DNA from: Deltaproteobacteria bacterium
GTDB taxonomy: Bacteria > Desulfobacterota > GWC2-55-46 > UBA9637
Reading direction: 5' to 3'
Assembly (NCBI GenBank): GCA_030690165.1
Contig: JAUYHF010000047.1
Coordinates: forward strand, 1-40,157
Length of the DNA: 40,157 nucleotides
How positions within the stretch are numbered: position 1 is the stretch's first letter; each line of letters opens with the position of its first letter. Positions 17,656-37,096 of the stretch are shown piece by piece. A program made the translations under genes and the position numbers. The notes under the pieces are model-generated. The model searched no databases, was not told where the DNA came from, and saw nothing but the letters and a program-made list of their open reading frames with translations.

Positions 17656-17834
17656 AAAACACCCCACCCTCACCTTAATCCTCTCCCTGAGGGAGAGGAA
17701 GAAAAGCAGGGAATCCTCTTCTGAGGGAGAGGAAGAAAAGATGGGAAATTCTCTCCCTGAGGGGGAGGAAACTTTTTCGTTCTCTCCCTTTCAAGGGGAG
17801 GGTTAGGGTGGGGATGGGGTAAAAGGGGTGTTTT
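17656..17834. repeat. Composite palindromic repeat block before the liv genes
   Basis: Outer arms AAAACACCCC ... CACC ... TTAATCC at about 17656-17682 pair with GGTTAGGGTGGGG ... GGGGTGTTTT at 17801-17834. Inside are CTCTCCCTGAGGGAGAGG hairpins (17681-17698 and partial copies at 17716-17733 and 17751-17768), joined by AGAAAAG spacers, and CTCTCCCTTTCAAGGGGAGGG at 17782-17802. No gene lies here. It resembles widely dispersed intergenic palindromes, may end transcription from the thiD side and may shape the 5' region of the liv transcript. Confidence 0.7.
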
Positions 17835-17869: not shown

Positions 17870-19000
17870 ATGAAAAAATTCAAAATTGCGTTTTTGTTAT
17901 TTATTATCCACTTTTCACTGTTCGCTGTCTTCACAGGCTGCGCCAAAAAGGAAGATACTATAAAAATCGGCGTTGCAGGCCCGATGACAGGGGACCAGGC
18001 AAAGATGGGCACTGATTTAAAAAACGGCGTTGAGCTTGCAGTGAGCGAGTGGAATGAAAAGGGAGGAGCGCTTGGGAAAAAGATTGAACTCTTTATTGAA
18101 GACGACCAGCATGACCCAAAGCTCGCAGTAATAGTCGCTAACAAACTTTCAAATTCAGGCGCGGTGGGCGTTATCGGACACTGGAATAGTTCAGCATCCA
18201 TTCCGGCATCAGAGGTTTATAAAGACAGGGGCTATATCCCGATGATAACGCCGGCGTCAACAAACCCTCAATTGACAGAAAGGGGCTTTGAGAATGTATT
18301 CAGGGTATGCGGCAGGGACGACCAGCAGGGAATGATTGCAGCAGAGTTTGTTGTAAAAAATATGAAGATTAAAAGGGTGGCGATTATCCACGACAAGACA
18401 ACATACGGACAGGGGCTTGCAAATGAATTTAAAAAGGCGATGGGCAATGCGGCAGAGGTTGTTTACTACGGCGTTATAATTCAGGGAGATAAAGATTTTA
18501 GGGCGGTTTTGACAAGCATAAAGGATAAGAGGCCTGAGCTTATCTATTTCGGCGGCATATACCCGGAGGCAGGCCTGCTTGTAAGGCAGGCAAAAGAGCT
18601 TGGTATAAAGTCTCCATTTATGAGCGGCGATGGAACCATTGACAAGGAGTTTATAAAGATTGCAGGCAAAGAGAATGCAGAAGGCACATACCTGACATTC
18701 AGCCCTGACCCATCCAATATTCCAACAGCAAAGGCATTTCTGGATAAATACCATGCAAAATATGGAGAGCATGGGCCATATTCCATCTATGCATACGATG
18801 CCGCAAATATACTTTTAACAGGCATCAGCAAGGCGGGAGCTGTGGATGGAAAGAAGATTGCCGATGCAATTCACAATCTTGCTTACGAAGGCTCCCTCGG
18901 CACAATCCGGTTTGACAAAAAGGGTGATGTGCTTAAAGCGCCATACATTGTTTGGATTACGAAAGACGGAGAGTTTAAGGAATACTGGAAACCGGAATAA
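17870..19000 (+). CDS. livK: ABC transporter periplasmic binding lipoprotein, branched-chain amino acid type
   Basis: A 376-residue substrate-binding protein. The N-terminal signal ends in a lipobox, FTGC with C24 as the lipid-modified residue, so it is tethered to the inner membrane or exported to the outer membrane. The mature part has the Peripla_BP_6 layout: IKIGVAGPMTGDQAKMG, GGALGKKIELFIEDDQHDP, VGVIGHWNSSASIPASEV, YIPMITPASTNP and VAIIHDKTTYGQGLANEF. Members bind leucine, isoleucine, valine or other amides; the ligand is not certain. AGGAGG stands upstream of the ATG. livH follows after 3 bases. Confidence 0.9.
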   Translation: MKKFKIAFLLFIIHFSLFAVFTGCAKKEDTIKIGVAGPMTGDQAKMGTDLKNGVELAVSEWNEKGGALGKKIELFIEDDQHDPKLAVIVANKLSNSGAVGVIGHWNSSASIPASEVYKDRGYIPMITPASTNPQLTERGFENVFRVCGRDDQQGMIAAEFVVKNMKIKRVAIIHDKTTYGQGLANEFKKAMGNAAEVVYYGVIIQGDKDFRAVLTSIKDKRPELIYFGGIYPEAGLLVRQAKELGIKSPFMSGDGTIDKEFIKIAGKENAEGTYLTFSPDPSNIPTAKAFLDKYHAKYGEHGPYSIYAYDAANILLTGISKAGAVDGKKIADAIHNLAYEGSLGTIRFDKKGDVLKAPYIVWITKDGEFKEYWKPE

Positions 19001-19003
19001 AGC

Positions 19004-19906
19004 ATGTTTCTTCAGCAACTCATAAATGGTCTTACACTCGGCAGTGTCTATGCCCTGATTGCACTTGGCTACACAATGGTTTATGGCATTTTACAGCTCA
19101 TAAACTTTGCCCACGGCGAAATATATATGATAGGCGCATACATGGCCATCATTGTTTTGGGTGTTTTGACCGCGTCCGGCTTGACTTCTGTAAACCTTCC
19201 TCTGTCTATTTTATTAGTCTTTATTATTTCCGGCCTTTTCTGCTGCGCGTATGGTCTGACCATGGAAAGGGTTGCATACAGGCCGCTCCGTCATGCCCAC
19301 AGGCTTTCGCCGTTAATATCAGCCATCGGCATGTCTATATTCCTTCAGAATTATGTCATGCTTACCCAGGGGACGGTTGATAAAGTATTCCCGCACATCA
19401 TCCCTTCAACAGGATTAGAGATAGCAGGCGCAAGCATAAGCTATCTGCAAATATTTATCCTTGCGGCATCGTTTATCCTGATGACAGCGCTCCATCTTTT
19501 CATTAAAAAGACAAGGCTCGGCAAGGCAATGCGCGCAACCAGTCAGGACAGCAGAATGGCAAGCCTTGTCGGTATAAATATAGATAGTGTCATAGCAGTT
19601 ACCTTCGTGATAGGCTCTATCCTCGCCGCCACCGCTGGCGTTATGGTTGCCATGTATTACGGCTCGGTGAATTTCTTCATCGGCTACACCGCAGGCATAA
19701 AGGCGTTTACCGCAGCGGTGCTCGGCGGCATCGGCAACATCCCGGGCGCCATGCTCGGCGGCTTATTGCTCGGTCTTGTGGAAGGCCTGGGCGCAAGTTA
19801 TATATCCAGCGAATATAAGGATGTGTTTGCGTTCCTGATATTGATACTGGTTTTGATATTCCGGCCCACTGGGTTGCTTGGGGAGAGGGTTGGGGAGAAG
19901 GTTTAA
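19004..19906 (+). CDS. livH: Branched-chain amino acid ABC transporter permease
   Basis: A 300-residue inner-membrane permease with about eight hydrophobic segments. It begins MFLQQLINGLTLGSVYALIA followed by LGYTMVYGILQLINFAHGE, the LivH signature. The EAA-like coupling region reads TRLGKAMRATSQDSRMASLVGIN, and the glycine-rich segment GIKAFTAAVLGGIGNIPGAMLGG is also typical. Full length for the family. It should pair with LivM and the ATPases LivG and LivF, but none follows: the next genes are on the opposite strand. The partner genes must be elsewhere, or the operon has been cut here by rearrangement. Confidence 0.92.
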   Translation: MFLQQLINGLTLGSVYALIALGYTMVYGILQLINFAHGEIYMIGAYMAIIVLGVLTASGLTSVNLPLSILLVFIISGLFCCAYGLTMERVAYRPLRHAHRLSPLISAIGMSIFLQNYVMLTQGTVDKVFPHIIPSTGLEIAGASISYLQIFILAASFILMTALHLFIKKTRLGKAMRATSQDSRMASLVGINIDSVIAVTFVIGSILAATAGVMVAMYYGSVNFFIGYTAGIKAFTAAVLGGIGNIPGAMLGGLLLGLVEGLGASYISSEYKDVFAFLILILVLIFRPTGLLGERVGEKV

Positions 19907-19931
19907 ATAATTACAAACACAAACATGAACT

Positions 19932-19980
19932 GTGACCAATTTCCGTGTCCGTGTTTATTACGGTCACGGGCAACGGACAC
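19932..19980. terminator. Possible bidirectional terminator between convergent genes
   Basis: Arms GTGTCCGT (19945-19952) and ACGGACAC (19973-19980) are perfect inverted repeats, and GTGACC/GGTCAC (19932-19937 and 19962-19967) form an alternative stem. It lies between livH and the convergent lipoprotein gene. There is no strong T-run on either side, so termination is only suggested by position. Confidence 0.35.
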
Positions 19981-19994
19981 TGACAACGATATTC

Positions 19995-20252
19995 TTATTT
20001 CCCCTCCATTTCTTGAACTGCCTTATTTTCTTCTTCCACCCTTCTATTTTCAGCCCCTGCTGCCTTCTTGGCTTTATCCTGGGCAGTGGTCAGGGTATTG
20101 ACATACTTATCCACTATTTGTCCTGTTGATTCTGTTTGTTGTGGTTGTTTAGATTTTTCTTGCGGGTTGCTTGATGAGTTTGTGCAGGAATATAAAAAGG
20201 CAAAGATTATTAGAATAGCTAAATATAAAAAACTGTTTTTATATTGTCTCAT
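19995..20252 (-). CDS. Small lipoprotein, last gene of the bc-type operon
   Basis: An 85-residue lipoprotein: a short basic start (MRQYKNS), a hydrophobic segment and a lipobox FLYSC with C23. The mature part is Ser/Asn/Gln-rich, then a charged helix (VDKYVNTLTTAQDKAKKAA ... EEENKAVQEM) that could form a coiled coil. The function is unknown. I chose the ATG at 20252 because it directly precedes a proper signal sequence; the upstream in-frame ATG at 20291 would put 13 extra residues before it. It lies 87 bases after the tetrahaem cytochrome gene on the same strand. Higher AT content than the cytochrome genes suggests it may not belong functionally to them. Confidence 0.65.
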   Translation of the reverse strand: MRQYKNSFLYLAILIIFAFLYSCTNSSSNPQEKSKQPQQTESTGQIVDKYVNTLTTAQDKAKKAAGAENRRVEEENKAVQEMEGK

Positions 20253-20339
20253 TTTACAAAAATCAGGGCTGCCAATCCCGTTTAAATACACAACGGGACA
20301 AGTTTATTTAATGGTTTGCGTGCGCATGTTCAGAGTAGA

Positions 20340-21287
20340 TTATTGCAATGACTTGACAGGCACAGGCCGAGAAGGGGTCTGTGCAAATCTCTTCTTGGCT
20401 ATATATTCGTAGGGAATCGCATCTACCTTGTAGTCTCTTAAGCTAAGCACATAGATCGTAAGCGCCCTCGCCTTCTCAGGTGAAAGTCCGAAGTTGGGCA
20501 TAATCGTGGGGGGAAAGTTTAACTCGCGATTCCCCGGGACAATCTTCTGCGGATCCAAGAAATGTTCATACTCCCATTGCGCCTTTGTATGGGGACCTTC
20601 TACGTGTACAAAATCATGGATCAGGCTGAATGCAAGCTCTGTCCTGCTTCCAAAGCCAGTCAACTCGGGCCCTATATTTCCCCCTTCTCCATTGATATTA
20701 TGGCACAGCCGGCAGTTATTCTGGAAGGTTAGACTTCTCCCCTGTAAGAAGGTCTCAACGCCAACGTCTGCGAATTTGTCATCCGTCAGAGAGGTGTCGT
20801 GAAGCTCCACATGGCATTTTACACATGACGCCTGTACATATTCCGCTGCCAGAAGCTGGCGGTTTAAGTGATGAACTACCCCATGAGTAGCTTCCACGGT
20901 CACGGCCTGGCCATCCCCCTGATGGCATACGGTACACCCAAATTTATCGATTGGATGCGTCTTGAGAATATCACCGGGGTGTGTGGTGAATGGCTGGGAT
21001 TCGTTTACGAAGAGGGGATTCTCCACCCCTAAATGACAGAGGATACACCTGTCCGTGGTGTTCAACTTGGTCAGCCAGACCTGCTTGATCCTGATCGGTT
21101 CACTCTGGAACTCGGGTTTATTCAGCTTGTCCGCCAGTTTTGTGTTGTAGCTCTGCTGGTAATGCCGCCATTCCTGGCTGCTCTCCCTGTAAAATATTAC
21201 CACTGTAATAATGGCGATCGCAATGACCGCGGCCGCGAATATCTTGTGCCGCCGCTTCATGACACCACTCTCCCAATTCGGATCCAT
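20340..21287 (-). CDS. Membrane-anchored tetrahaem cytochrome c of the bc-type operon
   Basis: A 315-residue c-type cytochrome with one N-terminal membrane helix (about 14-33, AAAVIAIAIITVVIF), so it is anchored with its haem domain in the periplasm. Four CXXCH sites start at C81 (CILCH), C118 (CTVCH), C155 (CVKCH) and C192 (CRLCH). The last part (FPPTIMPNFGLSPEKARALTIYVLSL) looks like a mono-haem class I fold with the distal methionine in MPNF. It probably takes electrons from the Rieske/cytochrome b genes upstream and passes them to periplasmic acceptors. GGGAGAG precedes the ATG at 21287. It takes the place that cytochrome c1 or f holds in classical complexes. Confidence 0.85.
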   Translation of the reverse strand: MDPNWESGVMKRRHKIFAAAVIAIAIITVVIFYRESSQEWRHYQQSYNTKLADKLNKPEFQSEPIRIKQVWLTKLNTTDRCILCHLGVENPLFVNESQPFTTHPGDILKTHPIDKFGCTVCHQGDGQAVTVEATHGVVHHLNRQLLAAEYVQASCVKCHVELHDTSLTDDKFADVGVETFLQGRSLTFQNNCRLCHNINGEGGNIGPELTGFGSRTELAFSLIHDFVHVEGPHTKAQWEYEHFLDPQKIVPGNRELNFPPTIMPNFGLSPEKARALTIYVLSLRDYKVDAIPYEYIAKKRFAQTPSRPVPVKSLQ

Positions 21288-21301
21288 AGGTACTCTCCCG
21301 G

Positions 21302-21424
21302 TTATTTATTTCTATTGTTTCTCTTATACAGCCTCTCCATGAGGCTGGAAAGACCGATAATGCCAAAGGTGAATGCCGCGGTGGCTACTATGAAAAAGAT
21401 CCCTATACCCAACTTATTCCACAT
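21302..21424 (-). CDS. 40-residue single-helix membrane peptide in the bc-type operon
   Basis: A short gene easily missed by length cut-offs. The peptide begins MWNKLGIGIFFIVATAAFTF, continues GIIGLSSLMERLYKRNNRNK and stops. It has one membrane helix (about 5-27) and a basic tail, so the tail should face the cytoplasm. GAGAGGGG stands six bases before the ATG, and the stop is 14 bases before the tetrahaem cytochrome start. Position and size recall the small Pet/Qcr subunits that stabilise b6f- and bc-type complexes, but there is no sequence signature; that role is inferred from context. Confidence 0.65.
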   Translation of the reverse strand: MWNKLGIGIFFIVATAAFTFGIIGLSSLMERLYKRNNRNK

Positions 21425-21514
21425 ATTTTTCCCCTCTCTTGGTTCCTACGCATGCTCTGGGCGCCTATTGCTGCGAAGTAAATATATGGGTCGTGCGGCT
21501 GCTCTGTGTCCCCG

Positions 21515-22339
21515 TCATATTTTAAACCACGGGGTCACCATCACATATTTAATCGAGAATATTAGCCTGAGGGCAATCTTTACAGGAATGCCCGCCATGA
21601 TGAGAAACAGTACCATTGTTGTCACATATCTGATGATGCCGAGCCTATTATAAAATCGTTTAAAGATAAATACGGGGATGATCAGCCCCACTGCAAAATA
21701 GACAAGCACAAGGAAATAAGACAGGGCATTTCCCATAAATTCACTGATACCCAGTATCCTCGCAAATATGACGGGAAGGTCCTTAAGACCAACAACCACA
21801 GGTTTATGTGCATGCCAGTTCTCCCATGGCCAGTACCAGCTCCAGTCGAGACCCCTTAACCATACCCCGATGACAATCAGGGCCGTCCATAATCCTAGCC
21901 CGAAGGCATAGACCGAGACGGCAAGCTTACGTTCCGAGAAGGTATAGGATCCACTCCCTTTCGGATTGGTATCGAGAAAAGGAATCAGCATGAGCCCGAT
22001 TATGATCAGGGCAGGCAGCGTCACCCCGGCTATCCATGGGTCAAAAAAGACCAGAAGCTCCTGCAGCCCCAGGAAATACCAAGGCGCCTTCATCGGATTC
22101 GGAGTGGTATCCCTGCCTACCTCTTCTTCGAGGGGGGCGCCCACATATAAGGAGAGGAAGAGTAGTGCGGCCGTAACCAAGAGGACGGCGATAAGCTCGA
22201 TATAAAAGAGGTGGGGCCATGAAAATATGGTATCCTCCGGCTCCTTTTCTACAGTGGGGGCTGTCCCCTTGACAAGCTCCATTAAGCCATAGGTCTTCTT
22301 AGGATTTTTTGGAAATATTTCAAAGGATTTCTCTGCCAT
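21515..22339 (-). CDS. Cytochrome b C-terminal half (subunit IV / PetD-like)
   Basis: A 274-residue inner-membrane protein corresponding to the C-terminal domain of cytochrome b, with several hydrophobic helices. The Qo-site region reads TPNPMKAPWYFLGLQELL: the usual PEWY glutamate is not in place (APWY). IAGVTLPALIIIGLMLIPFLD fits helix F. It is longer than plant-type subunit IV (about 160 residues), with further membrane helices at about 205-225 and 240-265. An N-terminal cytoplasmic segment of about 40 residues precedes the first helix. GGAGGG stands upstream of the ATG. It lies 17 bases after the cytochrome b gene and forms the quinol-oxidising core with it and the Rieske protein. Confidence 0.85.
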   Translation of the reverse strand: MAEKSFEIFPKNPKKTYGLMELVKGTAPTVEKEPEDTIFSWPHLFYIELIAVLLVTAALLFLSLYVGAPLEEEVGRDTTPNPMKAPWYFLGLQELLVFFDPWIAGVTLPALIIIGLMLIPFLDTNPKGSGSYTFSERKLAVSVYAFGLGLWTALIVIGVWLRGLDWSWYWPWENWHAHKPVVVGLKDLPVIFARILGISEFMGNALSYFLVLVYFAVGLIIPVFIFKRFYNRLGIIRYVTTMVLFLIMAGIPVKIALRLIFSIKYVMVTPWFKI

Positions 22340-22356
22340 CTTACACCCTCCATTTC

Positions 22357-23127
22357 TTATAGTGGTCCTGAGAATCCATCCTTCCTTACACGCCAGTAAT
22401 GGATGACCAGGAAGACCACGGCCACTAACGGTAAAACCACACAGTGGAGCACATAGAACCGGATGAGCGTATTCTGCCCCACCTCGGTTCCTCCCAAAAG
22501 CATGAACTTGATATCGTTATCCTGCCTCATCCCGAGCTGGCGACCAAAGGGGCCCTCCACCCCGAAGAGGGGTGTATCGCCGGCCATCTTCGTTCCCACC
22601 GTGACGGCCCAGAACGCAAGCTGATCCCAGGGGAGAAGATATCCTGTCCAGCTGAGCACTAATGTCAGTGTCAAAAGGACCACGCCGACCACCCAGTTAA
22701 ATTCTCTTGGGGGCTTATAGGCGCCGGTAAGGAATACCCTTGTCATATGGATCCAGACGGTGAGTACCATCCCATGGGCGGCAAGCCTGTGAACATTCCG
22801 GAATGTGCTTCCAAAGGATACGACGTTCATAATATCTTTTATATCCTGATATGCCCGCCTTGTGTCCGGGACATAGTAAAACATCAGCAGAAGCCCTGTC
22901 ACCGTTAGGACCACGAAGAGGAGAAGGGTTGCACCGCCCATGCACCAGGTATATCTGAACCTTATAGACTCTTTCCGCGTCTTGACCGGATGGAGGTGAT
23001 AAAGGACGTTGCTGAAGGTTGTCAGCGACCTGTTCCGGGGAGTATCTTCATATCCATGTCGGAATATCGCCCGGTATATCTGGGTGCCGGTGACCCAGTC
23101 CAAGACTTTTTTCCAGAGATTACTCAT
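22357..23127 (-). CDS. Cytochrome b N-terminal half (b6-type)
   Basis: A 256-residue four-helix cytochrome b that binds two b haems and oxidises quinol. The haem-ligand histidines are H113 and H127 in one helix ([21 protein letters not shown]) and H228 and H243 in another (FYVLHCVV ... [12 protein letters not shown]). The 14-residue gap in the second pair is the b6-type spacing. [19 protein letters not shown] is the conserved Qo-side region. The split from subunit IV is also b6f-like. GGAGGG lies upstream of the start. The basic N-terminus (about 1-55) is longer than in cytochrome b6 and should face the cytoplasm. It sits between the Rieske and subunit IV genes. Confidence 0.92.
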
Positions 23128-23210
23128 CGTCCCTCCCAGTTATATAACTAAAGGATTCAAGGGGCCGAACTGGAACCCTTGGCCCATTGAACCCTTTTTA
23201 ATCAATAATT

Positions 23211-23741
23211 CTACACCTTCAAAAAGAATGGATCCACCTCGCGTGAGGCCTCTTCCACCGTCAACCCGTTCTCAGTGGACACAGGATCAATGTCCTGCCT
23301 GTTATTAAAATCTACTATAATCTGTCCGTCAATGGGGTCTATCTTGATTGCCGCACGCCAGAGCGTCCTCGGCGCCGGCCCCCCCAAGACATTTCCATTT
23401 ATATCATATATGCTTCCATGACATGGGCACCGAAACTTCTGCTGATCTGAAAACCAGTTTGGTGTACATCCCAGATGACGACAGATTGAGATCATTACAT
23501 ATATCCCGCGCTTATTACGACCTACCCATACCTGTCTCTCTTTTTTCCATTTTTCACTCAACCCTTCGGGAAAATCCGAGGGCTTTCCTATCTTAAAGAC
23601 CTTCTGGGACTCATAAAGAACGTTGGGAAAGTAGAAGCGATAAAAACCTAAGGCAGACCCCCCCAACGTAGCGAGTATTCCACCCCACCCCACTAAAGAA
23701 AAGAAGTCCTTACGCGTAATTCGCTTATCCCCGTGATTCAC
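23211..23741 (-). CDS. Rieske 2Fe-2S protein
   Basis: A 176-residue Rieske protein with an N-terminal membrane anchor (SLVGWGGILATLGGSALGF, about 15-33) and the cluster ligands C87 and H89 in CRHLGC and C105 and H108 in CPCHGS; C92 and C107 can form the usual disulfide. KRITRKDFFSLVG near the start recalls a Tat-type signal, although the twin-arginine pair is broken (R-I-T-R-K). It accepts the first electron from quinol at the outer face of the membrane. The start GTG overlaps the stop of the FAD oxidoreductase (GTGA), with GGAGG ten bases upstream, so translation is probably coupled. Confidence 0.92.
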   Translation of the reverse strand: MNHGDKRITRKDFFSLVGWGGILATLGGSALGFYRFYFPNVLYESQKVFKIGKPSDFPEGLSEKWKKERQVWVGRNKRGIYVMISICRHLGCTPNWFSDQQKFRCPCHGSIYDINGNVLGGPAPRTLWRAAIKIDPIDGQIIVDFNNRQDIDPVSTENGLTVEEASREVDPFFLKV

Positions 23742-25579
23742 TTTACAGGAACCTCCTCAATATCTTCTATATATTCAAAAAACTCCATCGTCACTGCGCC
23801 CGTCGGGCACCGTTTTGCGCAATATCCGCACCGGATGCAACGATCCTCATCTTTCAGCATGGCCGTACCCATCTGCGCAACTGCGGATTGATCCCCACGC
23901 ATCAGGTCTTCCCATGATATATTGTATCTCGCTTCAACGACTCTTCTCAGATTCTCATCCCCGTCTATCTCGGTGACAGGCACCATCTTTAAGCAGTATG
24001 TCGGGCATACATCTACACAACCTCCGCACAATATACATAAATCTGCATCAAATATTGGGTTGACATGGCATTTGAGACAGCGCCTCCCCTGTGCCGTGGC
24101 GGCATCTTCTCCATAACCGATCTCAACGAGGGAGGAATCATGTCTCCTCTCCTTTACGCCGATTATGGGAGGATCATGACGTTCCAGAAGGTCAAAATCA
24201 CTGTACATCCTGTATTCCTTCGGGTCCGCTACGTTATGCATAATACCCCTTTTCTTTACCCTGATGCTTACCCCTCTGAGGTATTCATCAATAGACCTTG
24301 CTACCTTCTGGCCTGCGGCGATGGCGGTGATCAAGAGCTTGGGCCCATAGGCGATATCACCCGTGGCGAATATGCCAGGTACACTCGTCTTGTAATTATC
24401 GAGATTCACCTTTAATACCCCGGGTCTTGCCATCTCAATGCCGTCACTCTCCTGGATTAAGGAGAGATCCGCTGCCTGACCAACTGTGATGATCACAGTG
24501 TCACACTCTATGAGTGACTCTATATTCGGATCGAACTGCGGATTAAACCTCTTGTTCTCGTCAAAGATACTGATACATTTGATGGTCTCAAGGCCGACAA
24601 CCCTCCCATCTTTCCCTACGATCCTCTTGGGGCCGAAGCCGTCATGGAGGATGATACCCTCCTCTTCCCCCTCCATTATTTCCACAGGGTCGGCAGGCAT
24701 GATATCCCTCGTCTCAAGACAGGATATATGCACCTCGCTTGCCCCCAGACGCACGGCAGACCTCGCGGCATCATAGGCCACATTACCGCCGCCAATAACG
24801 ACCACCCTCGGTCCGATCTTGGGCGCGCGGCCATAATTTGCGGCTTTGATAAAGTCCATACCGAGCAATACACCTGCCAGATTTGTGCCTTCTATGGGGA
24901 TGGAACGTCCAAGCTGGAGCCCGATGGCGATCAATATCGCCTTGTAGCCCATATCCTTCAGGTCTTTCATGGAGAGGTCTTTCCCAATTCGGGTGTTACA
25001 CCGTATTTCGATACCCAGTGCGGCTATTGAATCTATCTCTGCTTTGACGAGTTTTTTGGAGAGCCTGTAGTTTGGGATTCCAAAGAACATCATCCCGCCC
25101 GGTTCAGGCTCGGCCTCAAAGACCGTGACCTTATAGCCGAGAAGGGCGAGGTCGTGGGCAGCGGCAAGGCCTGCCGGTCCGGCCCCGATAATCGCTATCT
25201 TCTCGCCGGAACCACGTTTGATGAGATTCCTTCGGGCATTGGAGAGCCTTATGACACCGGAGGGGTCAGCGAGCGCTTCAACGCCATACTTCTCTGTGAC
25301 AAAGCGCTTCAGCGCCCTGATGGATATGGCCTCGTCAATGTTCCCTCTCCGGCAGGCGGCCTCGCACGGATGACCGCAGACACGGCCGCATATAGAGGCA
25401 AATGGATTTGGAGCCCTTGCAATTGCATAGGCCCTCTCATAATCTCCATCGGCAATCGCCTGGACATAACCCCCCGAATCGGTTCCGACAGGGCACGCAC
25501 TCCGGCACTTTACCTGCTCTGCAAAGTAATCCACATCCGGTATGACTACACAGTATTTTTCCTTCAAAACTCCACTCAT
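23738..25579 (-). CDS. GltD-like FAD/NAD(P) oxidoreductase with ferredoxin domains
   Basis: A 613-residue cytoplasmic flavoprotein. The N-terminal Fer4_20-type domain (about 20-90) has the cysteine pattern CRSACPVG ... CGRVCGHPCEAAC. Next is the FAD site AIIGAGPAGLAAAHDLALLG, followed by PGGMMFFGIPNYRL. The NAD(P) site VVVIGGGNVAYDAARSAVRLG is central, and GIFATGDIAYGP is the second FAD motif. The C-terminal part has CILCGGCVDVCPTYC and CIRCGYCAKRCPTGA, enough for two 4Fe-4S clusters. I chose ATG 25579: the longer TTG start at 25597 would place the GGAGG ribosome binding site inside the gene. As first gene of the bc-type operon it may connect NAD(P)H to the Rieske/cytochrome b complex, as proposed for anammox bacteria. 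Confidence 0.88.
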   Translation of the reverse strand: MSGVLKEKYCVVIPDVDYFAEQVKCRSACPVGTDSGGYVQAIADGDYERAYAIARAPNPFASICGRVCGHPCEAACRRGNIDEAISIRALKRFVTEKYGVEALADPSGVIRLSNARRNLIKRGSGEKIAIIGAGPAGLAAAHDLALLGYKVTVFEAEPEPGGMMFFGIPNYRLSKKLVKAEIDSIAALGIEIRCNTRIGKDLSMKDLKDMGYKAILIAIGLQLGRSIPIEGTNLAGVLLGMDFIKAANYGRAPKIGPRVVVIGGGNVAYDAARSAVRLGASEVHISCLETRDIMPADPVEIMEGEEEGIILHDGFGPKRIVGKDGRVVGLETIKCISIFDENKRFNPQFDPNIESLIECDTVIITVGQAADLSLIQESDGIEMARPGVLKVNLDNYKTSVPGIFATGDIAYGPKLLITAIAAGQKVARSIDEYLRGVSIRVKKRGIMHNVADPKEYRMYSDFDLLERHDPPIIGVKERRHDSSLVEIGYGEDAATAQGRRCLKCHVNPIFDADLCILCGGCVDVCPTYCLKMVPVTEIDGDENLRRVVEARYNISWEDLMRGDQSAVAQMGTAMLKDEDRCIRCGYCAKRCPTGAVTMEFFEYIEDIEEVPVK

Positions 25580-25978
25580 GCTACCCCAGTCCTCCAAAGA
25601 TTTCTATGGACGGACTTTCTTTTTAACATGCTGTGGTTTTACTTGTCAAGAGATTTATTGACAAAAATTAAAATCACATTGACAGGGAATTATACTTGTT
25701 ATAATATCCCACCACAGCAAAGTTATACTTTTTATATTAATACAGTTTCTTCCTTTTATTCTACTAAGGCGACAGAAGCCGGGATGATACCCTTTGTGTA
25801 TCCTCCCGCAGCATATTTCCGATAGGACAGCTGGTTGATTCAGGTCCCGGGATATGCGAAATCTTAAACAGGGGCTTGAAATAAAGCGGGCAAGGGCCTA
25901 CTGCTATAGGTAACTTTCTGCTCTGTAGATATTTTCGCCTTAAAAAGACCTGGAAAACTAAATTTTTAAAAAGAGATA
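25580..25978. promoter_or_regulatory. Divergent control region between the bc-type and ACIII operons
   Basis: About 400 bases with no gene. TTGACA at 25679-25684 and TATAAT at 25700-25705, 15 bases apart, form a candidate plus-strand promoter; it would give a leader of about 270 bases before actA. On the minus strand TTGACA (25649-25644) with TTAAAA (25626-25621), spacing 17, is a weaker candidate for the oxidoreductase operon. TTGTCAA/TTGACAA (25643-25649, 25658-25664) form a perfect 7-base palindrome with an 8-base centre. TGCTGTGGT (25629-25637) and its exact complement (25711-25719) bracket the whole cluster. The rest, 25725-25978, shows no structure I can name. Confidence 0.5.
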
Positions 25979-26539
25979 ATGAAAAAGCTTATCCTATACA
26001 CCCTGACAGGTATCATATCGTTGGCAATAGGTCATGTGATTCAGCAGCAGTTCTTCTCGGACAGTGCCCCTCTTCAGCCCATAAATTTCAGCCATAAGAT
26101 ACATGCGGGCGACAACAATATCCCCTGCCAGTACTGCCACATCTACGCCGATAGATCCAAAGTGGCAGGCGTGCCCAGCGTCCAGAGGTGTATGGGCTGT
26201 CACAAGATCATAAAGACCGACTCTCCCATGATACAGAAACTTACATCTTACTGGGAGAACAAGGAACCCATACCGTGGGTGAAGGTGTATAATCTCCCCG
26301 ACCACGTCTATTTCCCCCACAAGAGACATGTAAAGGCAGGCGTGCCGTGCCAGCGGTGCCACGGCGATGTTGCAAAGATGGATAGGATTACCAGGCAGGC
26401 TGTTTTCTTCGGCATTCCGTATGTAAGGGTTTCTCATTTAAAGATGGGTTGGTGTCTTGAGTGTCATACGAACGAGGCGCAGAAATATATCGGAACTCCG
26501 GTCAAAAACGGAACCGATTGCTGGACATGCCACATATAA
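25979..26539 (+). CDS. actA: Alternative complex III subunit A, pentahaem cytochrome c
   Basis: A 186-residue cytochrome with an uncleaved N-terminal membrane helix (about 4-22) and five CXXCH sites at C50 (CQYCH), C71 (CMGCH), C124 (CQRCH), C159 (CLECH) and C181 (CWTCH), the haem number known for ActA. Extra histidines (NFSHKIH, FPHKRH, VSHLK) supply distal ligands. In alternative complex III it sits on the periplasmic side and takes electrons from the FeS subunit. The ATG has only a weak AGAGA upstream. It opens the seven-gene act operon. Confidence 0.92.
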   Translation: MKKLILYTLTGIISLAIGHVIQQQFFSDSAPLQPINFSHKIHAGDNNIPCQYCHIYADRSKVAGVPSVQRCMGCHKIIKTDSPMIQKLTSYWENKEPIPWVKVYNLPDHVYFPHKRHVKAGVPCQRCHGDVAKMDRITRQAVFFGIPYVRVSHLKMGWCLECHTNEAQKYIGTPVKNGTDCWTCHI

Positions 26540-26567
26540 AGGGGTAAAGGCGTAAAGGTCGATAAAG

Positions 26568-28832
26568 ATGATGAAACGCAGGGACTTTCTGAAATTTATA
26601 GGCGTTGGAGGGGCAGGGGCGGGGCTTGGCTTTATCTTCGGCAAGGTCACAAAGCCACCAGGGGCAAAGCTCATACCATATCTTATTCCGCCTGGTGATA
26701 TTGTCCCCGGGGTTGCAAGTTGGTACGCCACACTCTGCACGGAGTGCGGCGCCGGATGTGGCGCTCTCGTTAAGATAATGGAGGGCAGGGCAAAGAAGAT
26801 AGAGGGTAATCCCAACCATCCTGTCAACAAAGGAGGGCTTTGCGCCAGGGGGCAGGCAGCCCTTCAGACTCTTTATAACCCTGACAGGGTTAAAGGGCCT
26901 CTGAAGAGAAGGGGCGAGCGTGGTAGCGCAGATTTCGTTGAGGTTTCTTGGGACGAGGCCATTGATATGCTTGGTCAAAAGCTCGGGGAACTTAAAAAGG
27001 CTGGTTCTGCTGAAAAACTGTGGTTTTTGACCGCCCCCCTTTCTGGCCACAGGCTTAAGCTTGCAACCACCTTTATGTCAGTGTATGGCTCATCAAACCT
27101 TGTGCAGTACGAGCTTTTTCAGCACAGAAACCTTGTCTATGCGAATCAAACCACGATGGGCGTTAAAGAAACCCCCCATTATGACATCGCAAATACAAAC
27201 TATCTGCTTTCGTTTGGCGCGGACTTTTCAGGCACATGGCTTTCTCCTGTAAACTTTAGCCGTGGCTATGGCGAGATGCGCCAGGGTAGACACAGGGAAA
27301 CGAGGGGTCGTCTTGTGCAGATAGAGCCGCGGTTGTCTTTGACAGGGGCTAACGCAGATGAGTGGATCCCTGTAATGCCCGGCTCAGAGGCTGTGCTTGC
27401 CCTCTCTATAGCCTACACTATAGTAGAAAGGGGTTACTACAAAGGTGGAGATGCCTCAAAGTGGAGGTCTGCACTTTCTATATATGCGCCCTCTAAAACG
27501 GCCCCGGTCATCGATATTCCGGCGGAGAAGATAGAGGAACTATCCATGGAATTCATGGGCTCAAAACCCGCGCTTGCTATTGCCGGCGACGGGGCTTTGT
27601 CTTCTGCGGACGGGGTTTCCTGCGCTGTGGCTGTAAATATACTTAACCACCTTGCGGGCAGCATCGGCGTAAAGGGAGGGGTGGTTATTAACTCAGGCGC
27701 TTTGCTCGGTGAAGAGCCGGTTGACTTCAAAAAGGGCGTGGGAGCACTGTTAAACGCAGCGAGTTCTTCGGAGGTAAGCGTGCTTATGGTCTACAACGCA
27801 AATCCGCTCTATACAATGCCTAAGGCTGCAAATGCGAAAGAGTCGCTAAATAAGATTCCTTTTATAGTTAGTTTCTCAGGCTTTATTGACGAGACTATTG
27901 CAATGGCGGATCTTGTGCTGCCGACGCACCACTCGCTTGAGGACTGGGGGGACGGGTTTGCGTCCCCTTCGGTAGGATACCCGGTTGCCACAGTTATGCA
28001 GCCTGTGGTAAGCCCGGTCAATAATACCCGTGGGATTGGTGATATTTTCCTCACTCTTACTTCGAAGATAGGCGGAGGTATGAAGGAACGGCTTAAGTCC
28101 GATTCCTTTGAGGATTACCTTAAATCAGGCTGGAAGGAGCTTTACGGTAGAAACAATGAGCTTTCTGCCGGAACGATCGGGTTTGAGGATTTCTGGGAGA
28201 AGATGTTTGCAACCGGAGGATGGTGGAGGGAGACTGAGCCGACGAAGAAGGCTGCGGTATCGCTGAAGATGGCCGAGCAGTTATTGCCCTCAAGGCCAGC
28301 CGTTTTCGAAGGCAATGATAAGGAATACCCATTCTACCTCGTGATTTATCCCCACCATGGCCTTGGCGATGGAAGGCACGCAAACCTGCCATGGATGCAG
28401 GAGTTACCTGACCCAATGACCTCTGTGACATGGGGAAGCTGGCTTGAGGTAAATCCCAAGACCGCCGGAGCATTAGGGATAAAGCAAGGGGACTTTATTG
28501 CGGTAGAGTCCCCGTTCGGCATGATCACCCTTCAGGCATATTTATATCCAGGTATCAGGCCTGATATGGTGGCCGTTGCCATTGGCCAGGGGCATACGCA
28601 CTTGGGGAGATACGCAAAGAACAGGGGGGTGAACCCCATTGACATACTCCCATACAAAGAGGACCCGAGGACAGGGTCGGTTGCTCTAAATTCCACACGT
28701 GTAAAACTTGTCCGCACCGGCGCAGGTGAAAAGCTGGCAAAGACTGAGGGTGTAACGAGGGAGCTCGGAAGAAATATCGTCCAGACTATATCGCCTGAGG
28801 AATTTAAGAAGATTGGCAAGGAGGTTATATAA
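26568..28832 (+). CDS. actB1: Alternative complex III subunit B1, molybdopterin-oxidoreductase-like
   Basis: A 754-residue protein of the complex iron-sulfur molybdoenzyme fold. The N-terminus has a Tat signal (KRRDFLKFIGVGGAGAG, 3-19), implying export in folded form. A four-cysteine motif C57-x2-C60-x3-C64-x27-C92 (CTECGAGC ... C) can hold a 4Fe-4S cluster, whereas several characterised ActB1 domains are reported to have no cofactor there. Domains follow the usual order, ending in the molydopterin-dinucleotide-binding-like barrel (WLEVNPKTAGALGIKQGD ... VAVAIGQGHTHLGRYAKNRG). The gene is separate from B2, which is fused to it in Rhodothermus-type ActB. B2 starts at the base after its stop. 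An alternative ATG lies one codon downstream. Confidence 0.9.
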   Translation: MMKRRDFLKFIGVGGAGAGLGFIFGKVTKPPGAKLIPYLIPPGDIVPGVASWYATLCTECGAGCGALVKIMEGRAKKIEGNPNHPVNKGGLCARGQAALQTLYNPDRVKGPLKRRGERGSADFVEVSWDEAIDMLGQKLGELKKAGSAEKLWFLTAPLSGHRLKLATTFMSVYGSSNLVQYELFQHRNLVYANQTTMGVKETPHYDIANTNYLLSFGADFSGTWLSPVNFSRGYGEMRQGRHRETRGRLVQIEPRLSLTGANADEWIPVMPGSEAVLALSIAYTIVERGYYKGGDASKWRSALSIYAPSKTAPVIDIPAEKIEELSMEFMGSKPALAIAGDGALSSADGVSCAVAVNILNHLAGSIGVKGGVVINSGALLGEEPVDFKKGVGALLNAASSSEVSVLMVYNANPLYTMPKAANAKESLNKIPFIVSFSGFIDETIAMADLVLPTHHSLEDWGDGFASPSVGYPVATVMQPVVSPVNNTRGIGDIFLTLTSKIGGGMKERLKSDSFEDYLKSGWKELYGRNNELSAGTIGFEDFWEKMFATGGWWRETEPTKKAAVSLKMAEQLLPSRPAVFEGNDKEYPFYLVIYPHHGLGDGRHANLPWMQELPDPMTSVTWGSWLEVNPKTAGALGIKQGDFIAVESPFGMITLQAYLYPGIRPDMVAVAIGQGHTHLGRYAKNRGVNPIDILPYKEDPRTGSVALNSTRVKLVRTGAGEKLAKTEGVTRELGRNIVQTISPEEFKKIGKEVI

Positions 28833-29615
28833 GTGGGCGGGATCTTCAAAAGGATAGCGGAGCGGATCAGATCCTACAGGGTTCCGGGATACTACGAGAA
28901 GTTTGACCACAAGTTTACTATGGTGGTTGATCTCGACAGATGTAACGGATGCGAGGCTTGCGTTACCGCCTGCTACGCGGAGAATAACATCCCTGTCGTA
29001 GGCAAGGAGCAGATAAATAATGCCCGCCAGATGAGCTGGATCCGCATAGAGCGGTACGTCGATGGCGGGTATCCGAACATAAAGGTGAAGTTTATCCCCA
29101 TTATGTGCCAGCATTGCTCAAACGCCCCGTGTGAGTCCGCATGCCCCGTATATGCGACATACCATAATCAGGATGGTCTTAATGTGCAGGTGTACAATAG
29201 ATGTGTGGGCACATTTACATGTGCAACGTACTGCCCATATGATGTAAGGAGATTCAACTGGTTCACCTATAAGTGGGATAAGCCTCTGGATGAGCAGTTA
29301 ACCCCTGATGTTACAGTCAGGGAGATGGGCGTGATGGAGAAATGCACCTTCTGCATTCAGAGGATAAGGGCCGCAAAGGACAGGGCAAAGGACGAAGACA
29401 GGGCGCTAAAAGACGGCGATGTCGTTCCGGCCTGCGCGCAGACCTGCCCCACAGGAGCGCTTTCGTTCGGGGACCTGAACGACCCGAACAGCATGGTTTC
29501 GAAACTTGCGAAAAGTCCGAGAAGGTACAGGCTACTTGAGGAGCTTAACACTGCCCCCTCGGTTATATATCTAAAAAAGGTAATGGACGATGACACACGA
29601 GAACACAAAGAGTAA
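28833..29615 (+). CDS. actB2: Alternative complex III subunit B2, four-cluster ferredoxin-like
   Basis: A 260-residue FeS subunit with four cluster motifs: C37-C40-C43-C47; C92-C95-C100-C104; C124-(T127)-C130-C134; and C171-C174-C201-C205. In the third motif a threonine stands where the second cysteine should be (CVGTFTCATYC), so that site should carry a 3Fe-4S cluster. Three 4Fe-4S plus one 3Fe-4S is exactly the set known from alternative complex III. It has no signal peptide of its own and is presumably exported with B1. The start is a GTG right after the B1 stop. It overlaps actC by 26 bases. Confidence 0.92.
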   Translation: MGGIFKRIAERIRSYRVPGYYEKFDHKFTMVVDLDRCNGCEACVTACYAENNIPVVGKEQINNARQMSWIRIERYVDGGYPNIKVKFIPIMCQHCSNAPCESACPVYATYHNQDGLNVQVYNRCVGTFTCATYCPYDVRRFNWFTYKWDKPLDEQLTPDVTVREMGVMEKCTFCIQRIRAAKDRAKDEDRALKDGDVVPACAQTCPTGALSFGDLNDPNSMVSKLAKSPRRYRLLEELNTAPSVIYLKKVMDDDTREHKE

Positions 29616-30939
29616 GCCGACCTACAGAGAAGTGAACGAGGATGTGCTGAGGCTCATGACGCAGACGGGCCCAGGCTACTATATCATCCTCGCCATAGCC
29701 GGGGCTCTTGCCCTTATTCTCTTCTTCCTGCCCTGGGCATATCAGATATATACAGGCCAGGGAGTGACCGGACTTAATGTGCCGGTGATCTGGGGCGTCT
29801 ACCTCGTAAACTTCGTTTTCTGGGTCGGCATGGCGCATGCCGGGACGCTCATCTCCGCCATGCTCTTCATAACAAAGACCCCGTGGAGGAGGGCCATAAC
29901 GAGAGGCGCAGAGACCGTGACCTTCTTCTCCCTCATCCTCGTGGCGCTCTTTATCTTCATACACATGGGACGGCCTTGGAACTTATACTGGACAATGCCG
30001 TATCCTAGCCAGAGGCAGATATGGACTAGCTTCATCTCGCCGATTACATTTGACGTCTTTGCCATAGGCACATACACCACGAGCAGCGCCATATTCCTGT
30101 ACTTCGGCATGATACCTGATTTCGCCTCCCTCAAGCACCACACAACGGGATGGAGGAAGACGTTTTACACATATCTGTCCCTCGGGTGGAGAGGGACAGA
30201 CCCACAGTGGGTGGTGCATGGCCGCGCCACCATGTTCTTTTCGTCCTTTATTATGCCGCTCGTGGTTTCTGTCCACAGCATAGTTTCATGGGACTTCGCG
30301 ATGTCCCTCGTGCCCGGCTACAGCCAGACGGTCTTTGCGCCATACTTCGTTACAGGGGCGCTCCTATCGGGATTTGCAGGGGTCATGCTTATATTCACGG
30401 TCCTCAGGTGGGCGTACCCGTTCCTTAAAAAATACATAACCGAACACCACTACGAGAGGGTCGGGACCTGTATGCTGCTGTTATCGCTCGTGTGGAGCTA
30501 CCTTACGGGCATGGAGGTCTTCACCGGCTGGTATGCGGATACATCGTTTGAAATAGAACACCTTAAATACAAGATACTCACCCAGCCGTATCTCCAACTC
30601 TTCGCTCTGATGATATTCTGCAACGCCATTCTTCCCCTCTCGCTCATCTTCAGGAAGATACGGACTTCTTCCCGCGCCATGCCCGTGCTCTGCATATTCG
30701 TGCTTACGGGCATGTGGCTCGAAAGGTATCTGATAATCCCTAACGCGCTTTCGAGGAAGTTCCTGCCGTGGATGTGGCACGGATATTCGCCGAGCTGGGT
30801 CGAGATTTCCATAACAGCCGGCGCGTTCATGTTCTTTATCTTCATGTTCATGGTGTCCATAAAGATATTCCCTGTGATATCCCTTTTCGAGGTCAAGGAA
30901 GACTTGGGCGTTCCGATGGAAAAGGAGCGCCATAAATGA
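29590..30939 (+). CDS. actC: Alternative complex III subunit C, NrfD-like quinol-binding membrane protein
   Basis: A 449-residue polytopic membrane protein of the NrfD/PsrC family with about ten hydrophobic helices. It is one of the two large membrane subunits of alternative complex III and the likely main quinol site. Recognisable segments are VPVIWGVYLVNFVFWVGMAH, the HMGRPWNLYW stretch on the periplasmic side, and WDFAMSLVPGYSQTVFAPYF. The length matches ActC (about 450-480), longer than ActF. The ATG lies inside the end of actB2 and the stop overlaps the actD start (ATGA). Confidence 0.92.
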   Translation: MTHENTKSKPTYREVNEDVLRLMTQTGPGYYIILAIAGALALILFFLPWAYQIYTGQGVTGLNVPVIWGVYLVNFVFWVGMAHAGTLISAMLFITKTPWRRAITRGAETVTFFSLILVALFIFIHMGRPWNLYWTMPYPSQRQIWTSFISPITFDVFAIGTYTTSSAIFLYFGMIPDFASLKHHTTGWRKTFYTYLSLGWRGTDPQWVVHGRATMFFSSFIMPLVVSVHSIVSWDFAMSLVPGYSQTVFAPYFVTGALLSGFAGVMLIFTVLRWAYPFLKKYITEHHYERVGTCMLLLSLVWSYLTGMEVFTGWYADTSFEIEHLKYKILTQPYLQLFALMIFCNAILPLSLIFRKIRTSSRAMPVLCIFVLTGMWLERYLIIPNALSRKFLPWMWHGYSPSWVEISITAGAFMFFIFMFMVSIKIFPVISLFEVKEDLGVPMEKERHK

Positions 30940-31442
30940 GCGCGGTCTTAGGACAGTTTCCTCACGCGGACGACCTCCTGAAGGCCGCGGAGCGGATGAA
31001 ACAGTCCGGCTTCGGGATAACCGTATTCTCGCCCATCCCCCTCGTGCACGAGATGGAGGAGGTCTTCGGCGAGGAGCGGGATTATCTCAGGTTCTTTACC
31101 CTCTTCGGCGGGGTTGCCGGGTTTATGTTAGGCGTTATTCTCTCGCTCGGGACAGCCGTACTGTATGTGCTTCCGAGGGGCGGTCGTCCTATACTCACGG
31201 CTCCGCCCACGCTTCTTATTGCATATGAGACGATGATACTCTTGGGGGTATGCATGACTCTCCTGGGTTTTTTTGTCATCGCCGGAATCCCGTGCTTCAG
31301 ACACAAGGTTGACGAGCCGGCGTGCGCTATGGACTCCTTTGGACTCCTCGTAAAGGGAGTGGGGGAAGGCGAAATCGAAAGGGTCAATTCAATCCTAATG
31401 GAAAGCGGCGCAAATGAGGTAAAGAATGTCGAGGACGACTAA
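30936..31442 (+). CDS. actD: Alternative complex III subunit D (DUF3341)
   Basis: A 168-residue DUF3341 protein. The cytoplasmic N-terminal half has LGQFPHADDLLKAAERMKQSGF and FSPIPLVHEMEEVFG. Two membrane helices follow (about 53-77 and 92-117, the latter LLIAYETMILLGVCMTLLGFF), then the C-terminal DSFGLLVKGVGEGEIERVNSILMESGA. This is the ActD layout, a structural subunit without cofactor. It overlaps actC by four bases and actE by 17, consistent with one coupled transcript. Confidence 0.92.
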   Translation: MSAVLGQFPHADDLLKAAERMKQSGFGITVFSPIPLVHEMEEVFGEERDYLRFFTLFGGVAGFMLGVILSLGTAVLYVLPRGGRPILTAPPTLLIAYETMILLGVCMTLLGFFVIAGIPCFRHKVDEPACAMDSFGLLVKGVGEGEIERVNSILMESGANEVKNVEDD

Positions 31443-31941
31443 GGCCGCGCTCCTATGGGGGCTTATAGCCGCTATTGCGCCAGGGTCTTCCTTTGCCATG
31501 CCGTGGTCATGGGACATGTTTTCCCAGCCCTCGCACAAGGCTCAGGAGGGCACGGCCCTGCCTATGCCTAAGGACAGCGTCCCCACTGGGGGGAAACCCG
31601 CTTTTGGCGTTAAGACCAAAGAGAAATCGCTGAATCTCCCCAACCCCATACCCCCGACCGACGAGTCCTTTGTCCGTGGGAAGGCCCTTTACAATATTTA
31701 CTGCGCCATCTGTCACGGGGACACGGGTCATGGCGATGGAAAATTGGGCAAAAAATATATGACGCCCTCGGATTTAACGAGTGATTATATAAAAAAGGTG
31801 CCGGACGGCTCCATTTACTTCACCATAACATACGGCGGCGTCGGCAAAGACGAAGAGATGCCTGGGCAGGGAGACGCGATATCCCCTGAAGACAGGTGGC
31901 ACATTGTTAACTATATCAAGTATGTCCTTTCCTGGTGGTAA
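31426..31941 (+). CDS. actE: Alternative complex III subunit E, monohaem cytochrome c
   Basis: A 171-residue monohaem cytochrome with an N-terminal signal (about 1-24, AALLWGLIAAIAPGSSFA). I see no lipobox, unlike the lipoprotein ActE of Rhodothermus. The class I haem site is C93-x2-C96-H97 (CAICHGDTGHGDGKLG), and the distal methionine lies in DEEMPGQGDAISPEDRW. A proline-rich linker (LNLPNPIPPTDE) precedes the domain. It should carry electrons from ActA to an acceptor such as the bd-like module or a soluble cytochrome. GAGG lies upstream of the ATG inside actD. Confidence 0.9.
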   Translation: MSRTTKAALLWGLIAAIAPGSSFAMPWSWDMFSQPSHKAQEGTALPMPKDSVPTGGKPAFGVKTKEKSLNLPNPIPPTDESFVRGKALYNIYCAICHGDTGHGDGKLGKKYMTPSDLTSDYIKKVPDGSIYFTITYGGVGKDEEMPGQGDAISPEDRWHIVNYIKYVLSWW

Positions 31942-32020
31942 TGGTGGCATGGAATGGATGGATTGCCAAATTGCGAGGCTGAAAAACCTGGCAATTTGTT
32001 AAGAGCAAAAGTGAGGGGCT

Positions 32021-33142
32021 GTGATATTCTGGGTATTGCTGGTGATATTGCTGAACGGCATAATCTCCTTTGTCTATAGCGTGCAGACAACGCAGGAGAC
32101 AACGAACCTCTGGGCCATGCTGGCGGTTAATTTCGTTTTTTTTGTCGGCATCACGCAGGCGGGGGTCGCTTTTTCCGTCATCATGAGGCTGGCAAGGTCT
32201 GAATGGGCCAGGTATTTTTCGAGGCTCGGGGAGATAATGACGCTCTCTTTTATCCCGATTGCGGCAGTCATGTTCATCATCCTGTATGTTGGCGGGGCAA
32301 ACCATCTTTTTTACTGGGCGAACCCTGAGAAATTCCACGGCCCAATAAGCCCGTGGCTCGGAAAGGGGTTATTTTTCTGGAGGAACCTCATCGCGAACGC
32401 CCTTTTCTATATAACGAGCTATCTGTATTTTTCCTCTGGCCGCAGGGAGGAAAAACAGGCTCACCCCCGGGAGGACATTAAAAAGAGGCTCAATATCATA
32501 GCCGCCGCGGTCTGCTTTTTCTATGTGATTGCCAACACCCTGATCGCTTGGGACTTCGGCATGATGATTATCCCACACTGGGAAAGCTCCGTATTTGCCC
32601 CATATTTCTGGTCAGGGAACCTCCTCGCCGGCTTCGCCTTCCTGTATCTTATGTCATTTTTCTTCATACCCGGAAAACCGGGGGAACACCTGAATAAACA
32701 TATCCTCGATTCAATGGGTAAGGTGCTGATAGGTTTTGTGCTTCTGTGGGTGTACCTGTTCTGGTCGCAGTATATAGTTCTCTGGTACGGCAATCTGCCG
32801 GACCGTGCAGGGCCTGTATTCAGGCAGATGAAAGGCCATTACACCCCTGCGTTTACAATCATGATGGCGGCGATATTTATTGTTCCGTTTTTCGCTCTTA
32901 TATTCAGGCGAATAAAGCTCTCTGTCAATGGCCTGGCCGCTGTCGCGGTCATAATATGCATCGGGGTATGGATTAGCAAATATCTCATGATACTGCCTGT
33001 CTTTTCGGAAGGCGGCACGCCGGTTATTATAACATGGACAGGTATTTCACTGATACTCGGGGGGCTGGCGGCCGCATTGCTCTCGCTCATCATCTTCTTC
33101 AGGCTGTGCCATGATGTTAAGGCGATGCCGGAGCAGGAATAG
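32021..33142 (+). CDS. actF: Alternative complex III subunit F, NrfD-like membrane protein
   Basis: A 373-residue NrfD-family protein with about ten hydrophobic helices, the second large membrane subunit of the complex. AMLAVNFVFFVGITQAGVAFSVIMRL parallels the ActC segment, and VIANTLIAWDFGMMIIPHWESSVFAPYFW matches the conserved WDF ... FAPYF region. Shorter than ActC, as usual. The start is GTG 32021 with GAGGGG just upstream; a stop codon three codons before excludes a longer frame. The 79-base gap after actE holds a weak ATTGCCA/TGGCAAT hairpin and is the only real gap in the act operon. Confidence 0.9.
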   Translation: MIFWVLLVILLNGIISFVYSVQTTQETTNLWAMLAVNFVFFVGITQAGVAFSVIMRLARSEWARYFSRLGEIMTLSFIPIAAVMFIILYVGGANHLFYWANPEKFHGPISPWLGKGLFFWRNLIANALFYITSYLYFSSGRREEKQAHPREDIKKRLNIIAAAVCFFYVIANTLIAWDFGMMIIPHWESSVFAPYFWSGNLLAGFAFLYLMSFFFIPGKPGEHLNKHILDSMGKVLIGFVLLWVYLFWSQYIVLWYGNLPDRAGPVFRQMKGHYTPAFTIMMAAIFIVPFFALIFRRIKLSVNGLAAVAVIICIGVWISKYLMILPVFSEGGTPVIITWTGISLILGGLAAALLSLIIFFRLCHDVKAMPEQE

Positions 33143-33193
33143 GAATGCCCATGGGGTTTATCATGGTATGTAAAAAAAGGTTTGTATGAATGT

Positions 33194-34000: not shown

Positions 34001-34005
34001 CCCTG

Positions 34006-36869: not shown

Positions 36870-37096
36870 TATACTGGTCAATAAAAGCTAATCCGATTGA
36901 GTATGCCCTGTGCGATTATGTATAAGAACATCCTTGTTTGTCTCAACAATCAAGATGAAAGTTTTCTTCATGTAAATACCAACTGAAATTAGAGGAGGGA
37001 GTATTCCCCATGGACTAAACAGAAAGGTATGGAGGGATGTTAAGAAAAAAAGATAGAATACAGGCTGCAAGTTATTAGTCTATTTAGACTGTAGTA

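Follow-up and report, generated by a model that had tools for sequence, protein, structure and literature searches.

A conserved 40-residue membrane protein, probably a single-helix accessory subunit, encoded in a Rieske/cytochrome b operon

A small open reading frame (smORF) lying between the subunit IV-like gene and the cytochrome c gene of a bc-type operon is a real coding frame, and one that is short enough for many gene finders to miss. As its conserved relatives occupy the same place in related operons, its product is probably a small accessory subunit. A single-helix structural subunit of the Rieske/cytochrome b complex of the operon is the reading held with reasonable confidence, ranked above an assembly factor, which in turn ranks above a regulator or linker, and we infer that the protein is bound within the complex. 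The operon runs on the minus strand of the window (the whole stretch of 40,157 nucleotides that was analysed), and its features are given here in the order in which they are read.

23738..25597, minus strand: GltD-like flavoprotein carrying 4Fe-4S domains, at the head of the run (Pfam and NCBIfam)
23211..23741, minus strand: Rieske iron-sulfur protein (Pfam Rieske, E 6.8e-10)
22357..23127, minus strand: cytochrome b, b6-like, 256 aa (Pfam Cytochrome_B, E 1.5e-40)
21515..22339, minus strand: subunit IV-like protein, 274 aa (Pfam Cytochrom_B_C, E 1.1e-04)
21431..21436, minus strand: Shine-Dalgarno-like GAGGGG of the smORF (sequence)
21302..21424, stop codon included, minus strand: smORF, 40-aa single-helix membrane protein (ORF list, homologues, purifying selection, helix model)
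20340..21287, minus strand: tetraheme membrane-anchored cytochrome c, directly downstream of the smORF (four CxxCH)

The frame has 40 codons from its ATG start to its TAA stop, with the GAGGGG lying 7-12 bases 5' of the ATG, and the protein has one hydrophobic segment (maximum 19-residue Kyte-Doolittle mean 2.34) followed by the basic C-terminal tail RLYKRNNRNK. The ribosome binding site, the single membrane helix and the basic tail that the first-pass annotation had described for this 40-residue frame are thus all found in the sequence, as is the tight spacing to the next gene, with 14 nt separating the smORF from the ATG of the cytochrome c gene. The 90 nt gap on the subunit IV side is the widest of the 25 that could be measured among the 29 members. 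A Shine-Dalgarno-like 4-mer or longer precedes the smORF in 24 of the 29. The window contains 149 ORFs that are 35-60 aa long; five are strongly hydrophobic (hydropathy maximum of at least 2.0), and of these only the smORF has such a site. A scan of 21200-21620 detected no promoter-like or terminator-like sites.

The smORF is under purifying selection. When the window's frame was compared with its four nearest relatives over 38-40 codons, pN was 0.11-0.22 and pS 0.69-0.86, and in 23 of the 25 closest pairs dN/dS was 0.03 to 0.36, with dS saturated in the other two. An alignment of 29 full-length homologues (profile A4, in which a later ATG was chosen for L130 than its longest ORF has) shows M1, F10, T15 and E30 to be invariant and I7, G8 and K34 to be kept in at least 90% of rows, and the conserved positions include no cysteine or histidine.

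A profile of 14 subunit IV homologues matches subunit 4 of the b6f complex in the PDB (E 6e-06), the match spanning only positions 41-149 of 276; the subunit IV here has 274 aa, as against about 160 in b6f, and its model, of low confidence (mean pLDDT 51.6), shows two further long helices. The cytochrome c next to the smORF in the window matches Pfam Cytochrom_C (E 5.4e-08) and Cytochrom_c3_2 (E 2e-05), and the cytochrome c behind the smORF has four haem motifs in 27 of the 28 readable members and one in the other, the count leaving out L119, in which the gene runs off the contig.

The search of intergenic regions between subunit IV and cytochrome c genes in relatives, which had been proposed as a check on the first-pass annotation, did recover a conserved ORF of the expected kind. 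A scan for subunit IV with one genome per species returned 22 loci, and at nine of the 13 Nitrospirota loci (L067-L075) an ORF of 35-40 residues with a single helix lies between subunit IV and cytochrome c, the other four (L076-L079) having the same slot without a smORF. No such small ORF follows subunit IV in L045. A profile of the first ten smORF members (A1), run against 18 of the 22 source genomes (leaving out those of L083, L085, L086 and L088), found the smORF in the same nine and in no other. Loss or frameshifting of the frame in close relatives had been named as what would tell against it, and the frame is conserved and unbroken in the next relatives that carry the operon, these being the ones compared because the same-genus and same-family genomes have no subunit IV match.

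The association was followed in 196 genomes of the class to which G449, a Manganitrophaceae genome, belongs. Subunit IV is present in 26 of them, and in 24 of these the smORF lies at most 100 nt from the subunit IV stop. When A4 was searched in the same 196 genomes, 25 matched at 53 bits or more, all within the 26 having subunit IV, as against none of the 170 genomes lacking subunit IV; the only other match, in G574, reached 21.2 bits and lies inside an 838-aa frame. As 24 of these 25 genomes contributed to A4, the 25 matches arise partly by construction, and the informative cases are G481 and the 170 genomes without subunit IV. In G481 (locus L163) an insertion of three genes separates subunit IV from the smORF, which still stands 7 nt before the tetraheme cytochrome. 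The smORF of G478 overlaps subunit IV by 1 nt, at a locus with no adjoining cytochrome b and with a monoheme cytochrome c. The one genome with subunit IV and no smORF match, G558, has a subunit IV that is Entotheonella-like (39.7% identity to its best row) and lies at a contig end, which leaves the downstream gene out of sight. In all, 30 genomes carry the smORF: the window's own, those of L067-L070 and 25 of the class sample. Plasmids queried with the smORF together with subunit IV gave no match. That this is a small membrane protein of the bc operon, as first proposed, is strongly supported by its constant slot, by purifying selection and by its co-occurrence with subunit IV.

In G503 (L134/L136) subunit IV is split between two frames, 976420-976734 and 976727-977278, which is either a frameshift or an assembly error, and the smORF behind it is intact. 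In G116, the bc operon of which has no smORF, the interval between cytochrome b and subunit IV contains a hydrophobic ORF of 28 codons (L044:1350-1436, plus strand), which might be a small subunit of independent origin or might simply have arisen by chance.

Nearer to the window's species, subunit IV had no match in the four same-genus and three same-family genomes sampled, two of which are incomplete (G001 only 62%, G004 82%). A search of 41 relatives with the smORF alone returned nothing significant besides itself, a further 11 matches in 10 genomes having E values of 0.09-0.58. The NCBIfam model NF052408, considered below, gave one strong match among 117 relatives, that of the window itself at 37.4 bits, the rest staying below 18 bits, and five of 14 control genomes also matched. 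Likewise, A1 was convincing only in the window's own genome among 395 genomes of its phylum, with 15 further weak matches of 17-26 bits. Eight of those 15 loci were examined, and six proved to lie near the N-terminus of a protein of 310-345 aa that comes after an apparent ABC permease and ATPase and that we take to be MlaD-like, the other two being in unrelated places. A search for actD of alternative complex III found it in 14 of 31 genomes, the window's included. As subunit IV was not found in congeners or family members and the smORF stands alone in the 395-genome sample, the bc operon looks patchy around the window's species, unlike the commoner actD.

The history of the smORF was considered on a subunit IV tree of 42 rows, in which L135 (G558) was unscored and from which the frame-broken G503 (L134/L136) was left out. 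The presence of the smORF requires two changes on this tree, as against a mean of 10.6 with shuffled labels, and none of 500 shuffles was as low. The pattern fits a single gain together with a single loss in the clade L076-L079, on a tree that cannot separate gain from loss and on which several outgroup branches are long. That clade, which includes a Nitrospira sp., has the same operon core and no smORF, so the complex can do without the smORF protein, a point against the subunit reading, as is the single convincing match among the 395 genomes of the window's phylum.

The surrounding DNA has features of its own. G+C is about 0.45-0.54 at about 18000-38000 of the window, compared with about 0.37-0.46 to the left, and because of this shift and the absence of the bc operon from sampled congeners, that stretch may have been laterally acquired, although actD is commoner in relatives. 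Diverging from the bc run, an alternative complex III-like gene run occupies 25979-36869 on the plus strand, with a multihaem cytochrome, a molybdopterin protein, an FeS protein, NrfD, ActD, a cytochrome c and a 373-aa membrane protein without a Pfam match; next come a protein of the cytochrome c554 type, one resembling a bd oxidase, and another cytochrome c. Since the window's genome shows no COX1-family gene, the bd-like protein may be its main terminal oxidase. Inspection by eye also showed a short motif that looks inverted, ctctccctgagggagaggaagaaaa, recurring in several near-copies at 17660-17820 and possibly REP-like.

AlphaFold2 models the smORF protein as one helix over residues 2-38 (mean pLDDT 86.8, pTM 0.47). 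Net charge is greater in the C-terminal flank than in the N-terminal one in 28 of the 29 members and equal in the remaining one, and because the C side is the more positive, the positive-inside rule predicts an orientation with the N-terminus out and the C-terminus in. A profile of the smORF against the PDB returned nothing meaningful, the best hit being to a designed protein (E 0.044). A conservation moment analysis over three residue ranges detected no single conserved helix face (p 0.54-0.58), and this spread of conserved positions round the helix counts against the simplest picture, that of a helix packed on one side only.

Two traits expected of a single-helix accessory subunit of a bc or b6f complex are present: one helix in about 30-50 residues, by hydropathy and AlphaFold2, and a gene that is encoded with a bc complex and co-occurs with it. 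As a structural subunit, the protein would insert its helix with the N-terminus in the periplasm and the basic tail in the cytoplasm, would pack against the periphery of the complex, close to subunit IV and to the anchor of the cytochrome c, and would stabilise the assembly, much as the single helices PetG, PetL, PetM and PetN surround the core of b6f. According to PMC9342900, cytochrome b6 and subunit IV together contribute the seven helices of that core, and PetG, L, M and N ring it.

A dedicated assembly or haem-insertion factor that binds during biogenesis and then leaves, with either the cytochrome b/subunit IV pair or the tetraheme cytochrome as its client, would account equally well for the place in the operon, the small size and the co-occurrence, and conserved positions that are not one-sided speak in its favour. 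A protein consisting of one helix, with almost nothing outside the membrane, would however offer little to hold a cofactor, and the absence of cysteine and histidine from its conserved positions adds to this, an argument made largely from analogy. An assembly factor is unlikely, though the best placed of the alternatives.

A smaller chance is given to a regulator or linker outside the core, which would modulate the complex or join it to a terminal oxidase or to the GltD-like module. The tail that is predicted to be cytoplasmic would suit such a role, and in b6f the regulator PetP has its binding site next to the PetG C-terminus, on the cytoplasmic face close to subunit IV (PMC9342900). Against it, no gene beyond the bc set emerged as a constant partner, and a GltD-like relative lies in the flanks of only six of the nine smORF loci from the one-genome-per-species scan; it was not found in the available flanks, some of them short, of L073-L075, L163 and L164. 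A more novel reading, also given a low probability, is a lineage-specific subunit whose basic cytoplasmic tail docks a flavoprotein or ferredoxin module, such as the GltD-like protein, onto the bc complex, which would then exchange electrons with NAD(P)H or ferredoxin. In b6f, PetP and a proposed ferredoxin-FNR site likewise lie by the PetG C-terminus. The docking idea is weakened because several smORF loci have no GltD-like gene in their flank.

Relatives of the smORF protein are already catalogued under another name. The NCBIfam model NF052408 ('NOVXTKCP family nitrogen cycling protein') gives E values of at most 0.1 for every one of the 29 aligned members, and 4.5e-10 for the window protein over residues 4-40, so that homology is clear. 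The cut-off of 60 bits is not reached by the window protein (39.4) or by L067-L074 (32.6-47.6), whereas L075 passes it with 66.2 bits. Homologous yet below the equivalog cut-off, the window protein is not filed as a member. The model has 46 positions, with a longer N-terminus that is seen in several smORF members and not in the window's. Its name is built like those of the FESNov families in PMC10849945 (e.g., NOV3845Y), a figure legend of which speaks of five novel families coupled to nitrogen-cycle genes, with lengths of 52, 144, 48, 80 and 165, and of petC, petB and pcmF/norC among the genes. We infer that the 48-aa family of this legend is NOVXTKCP. A literature search, in which figures and supplements were outside the scope, did not find the string 'NOVXTKCP', and a search by title and abstract start found no paper presenting the smORF protein as a bc subunit.

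Taken at its word, the family name would make this a nitrogen-metabolism protein, and the legend in PMC10849945 does name petC, petB and norC alongside such new families. No PF00115 match was found in the window's genome, whose computed completeness is 100%. That family (COX1/NorB) includes NorB, and by that model the genome thus has no NorB, while PF00115 matches, with NorB and oxidases unsorted, occur in eight of the 11 further smORF genomes searched, where the nitrogen label may still apply. In addition, NorC has one haem motif, compared with the four usual in the cytochrome downstream of the smORF. The linkage to the bc operon and the lack of a COX1/NorB-family gene in the window's genome make the nitrogen label of the family look doubtful here, and a nitrogen role for the protein is held very improbable. 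As for a chance frame, leader peptide or attenuator, many ORFs of such length do arise by chance, and the idea can be set aside as having a negligible probability because the smORF is conserved in 29 aligned full-length homologues under codon-wise selection, with pN far below pS, and has no terminator-like site around it.

The claim that the subunit would be new therefore stands in part. The existing label is one of nitrogen cycling and not of a bc subunit; a related family was nevertheless already modelled as NF052408, and a 48-aa novel family is set beside petC and petB in the legend of PMC10849945. If the structural reading is correct, part of the Nitrospirota, including a Candidatus Manganitrophaceae genome (L075), would have one more subunit in its cytochrome bc complex, single-helix helpers round a split cytochrome b would exist beyond the photosynthetic b6f complex, and a catalogued small-protein family with a doubtful label would gain a testable role.

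Comparison with known small subunits of bc or b6f complexes gave no sequence match above a cut-off, which also counts against the subunit reading. Pfam-A, which has models for PetG, PetL, PetM and PetN, gave no match to these among the 29 members at E 0.1. QCR9/UQCRX, a small single-helix subunit of mitochondrial bc1, matched the window protein (PF05365, E 0.039, 14.3 bits) below its gathering cut-off of 27; kinship was rejected as a chance match, as the other 28 members had none at E 0.1 and nine homologues scanned up to E 10 had none either. FixQ/CcoQ (PF05545) gave no convincing match, with three of the 29 members matching at E 0.1 (best 0.0079), the window protein not among them, and no PF00115 oxidase gene in the window's genome. 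A precedent in size and history is subunit IIa of the Aquifex aeolicus ba3 oxidase, which belongs to a B-type haem-copper oxidase and not to a bc complex: PMC3128077 describes a single-helix protein of 41 residues that annotation had missed and that gene context and mass spectrometry revealed in the purified enzyme. The likeness to PetG, L, M and N is one of architecture, in that the small protein has one helix and the cytochrome b of the complex is split into b6 and subunit IV. The C-terminus of PetG is cytoplasmic by subunit IV (PMC9342900), and that of the smORF protein is predicted to be cytoplasmic too. Unlike b6f, the presumed host complex of the smORF protein includes a cytochrome c with four haem motifs, and its subunit IV is longer; by analogy the size of the protein, its predicted orientation and its host complex would fit a way of working like that of PetG, L, M and N.
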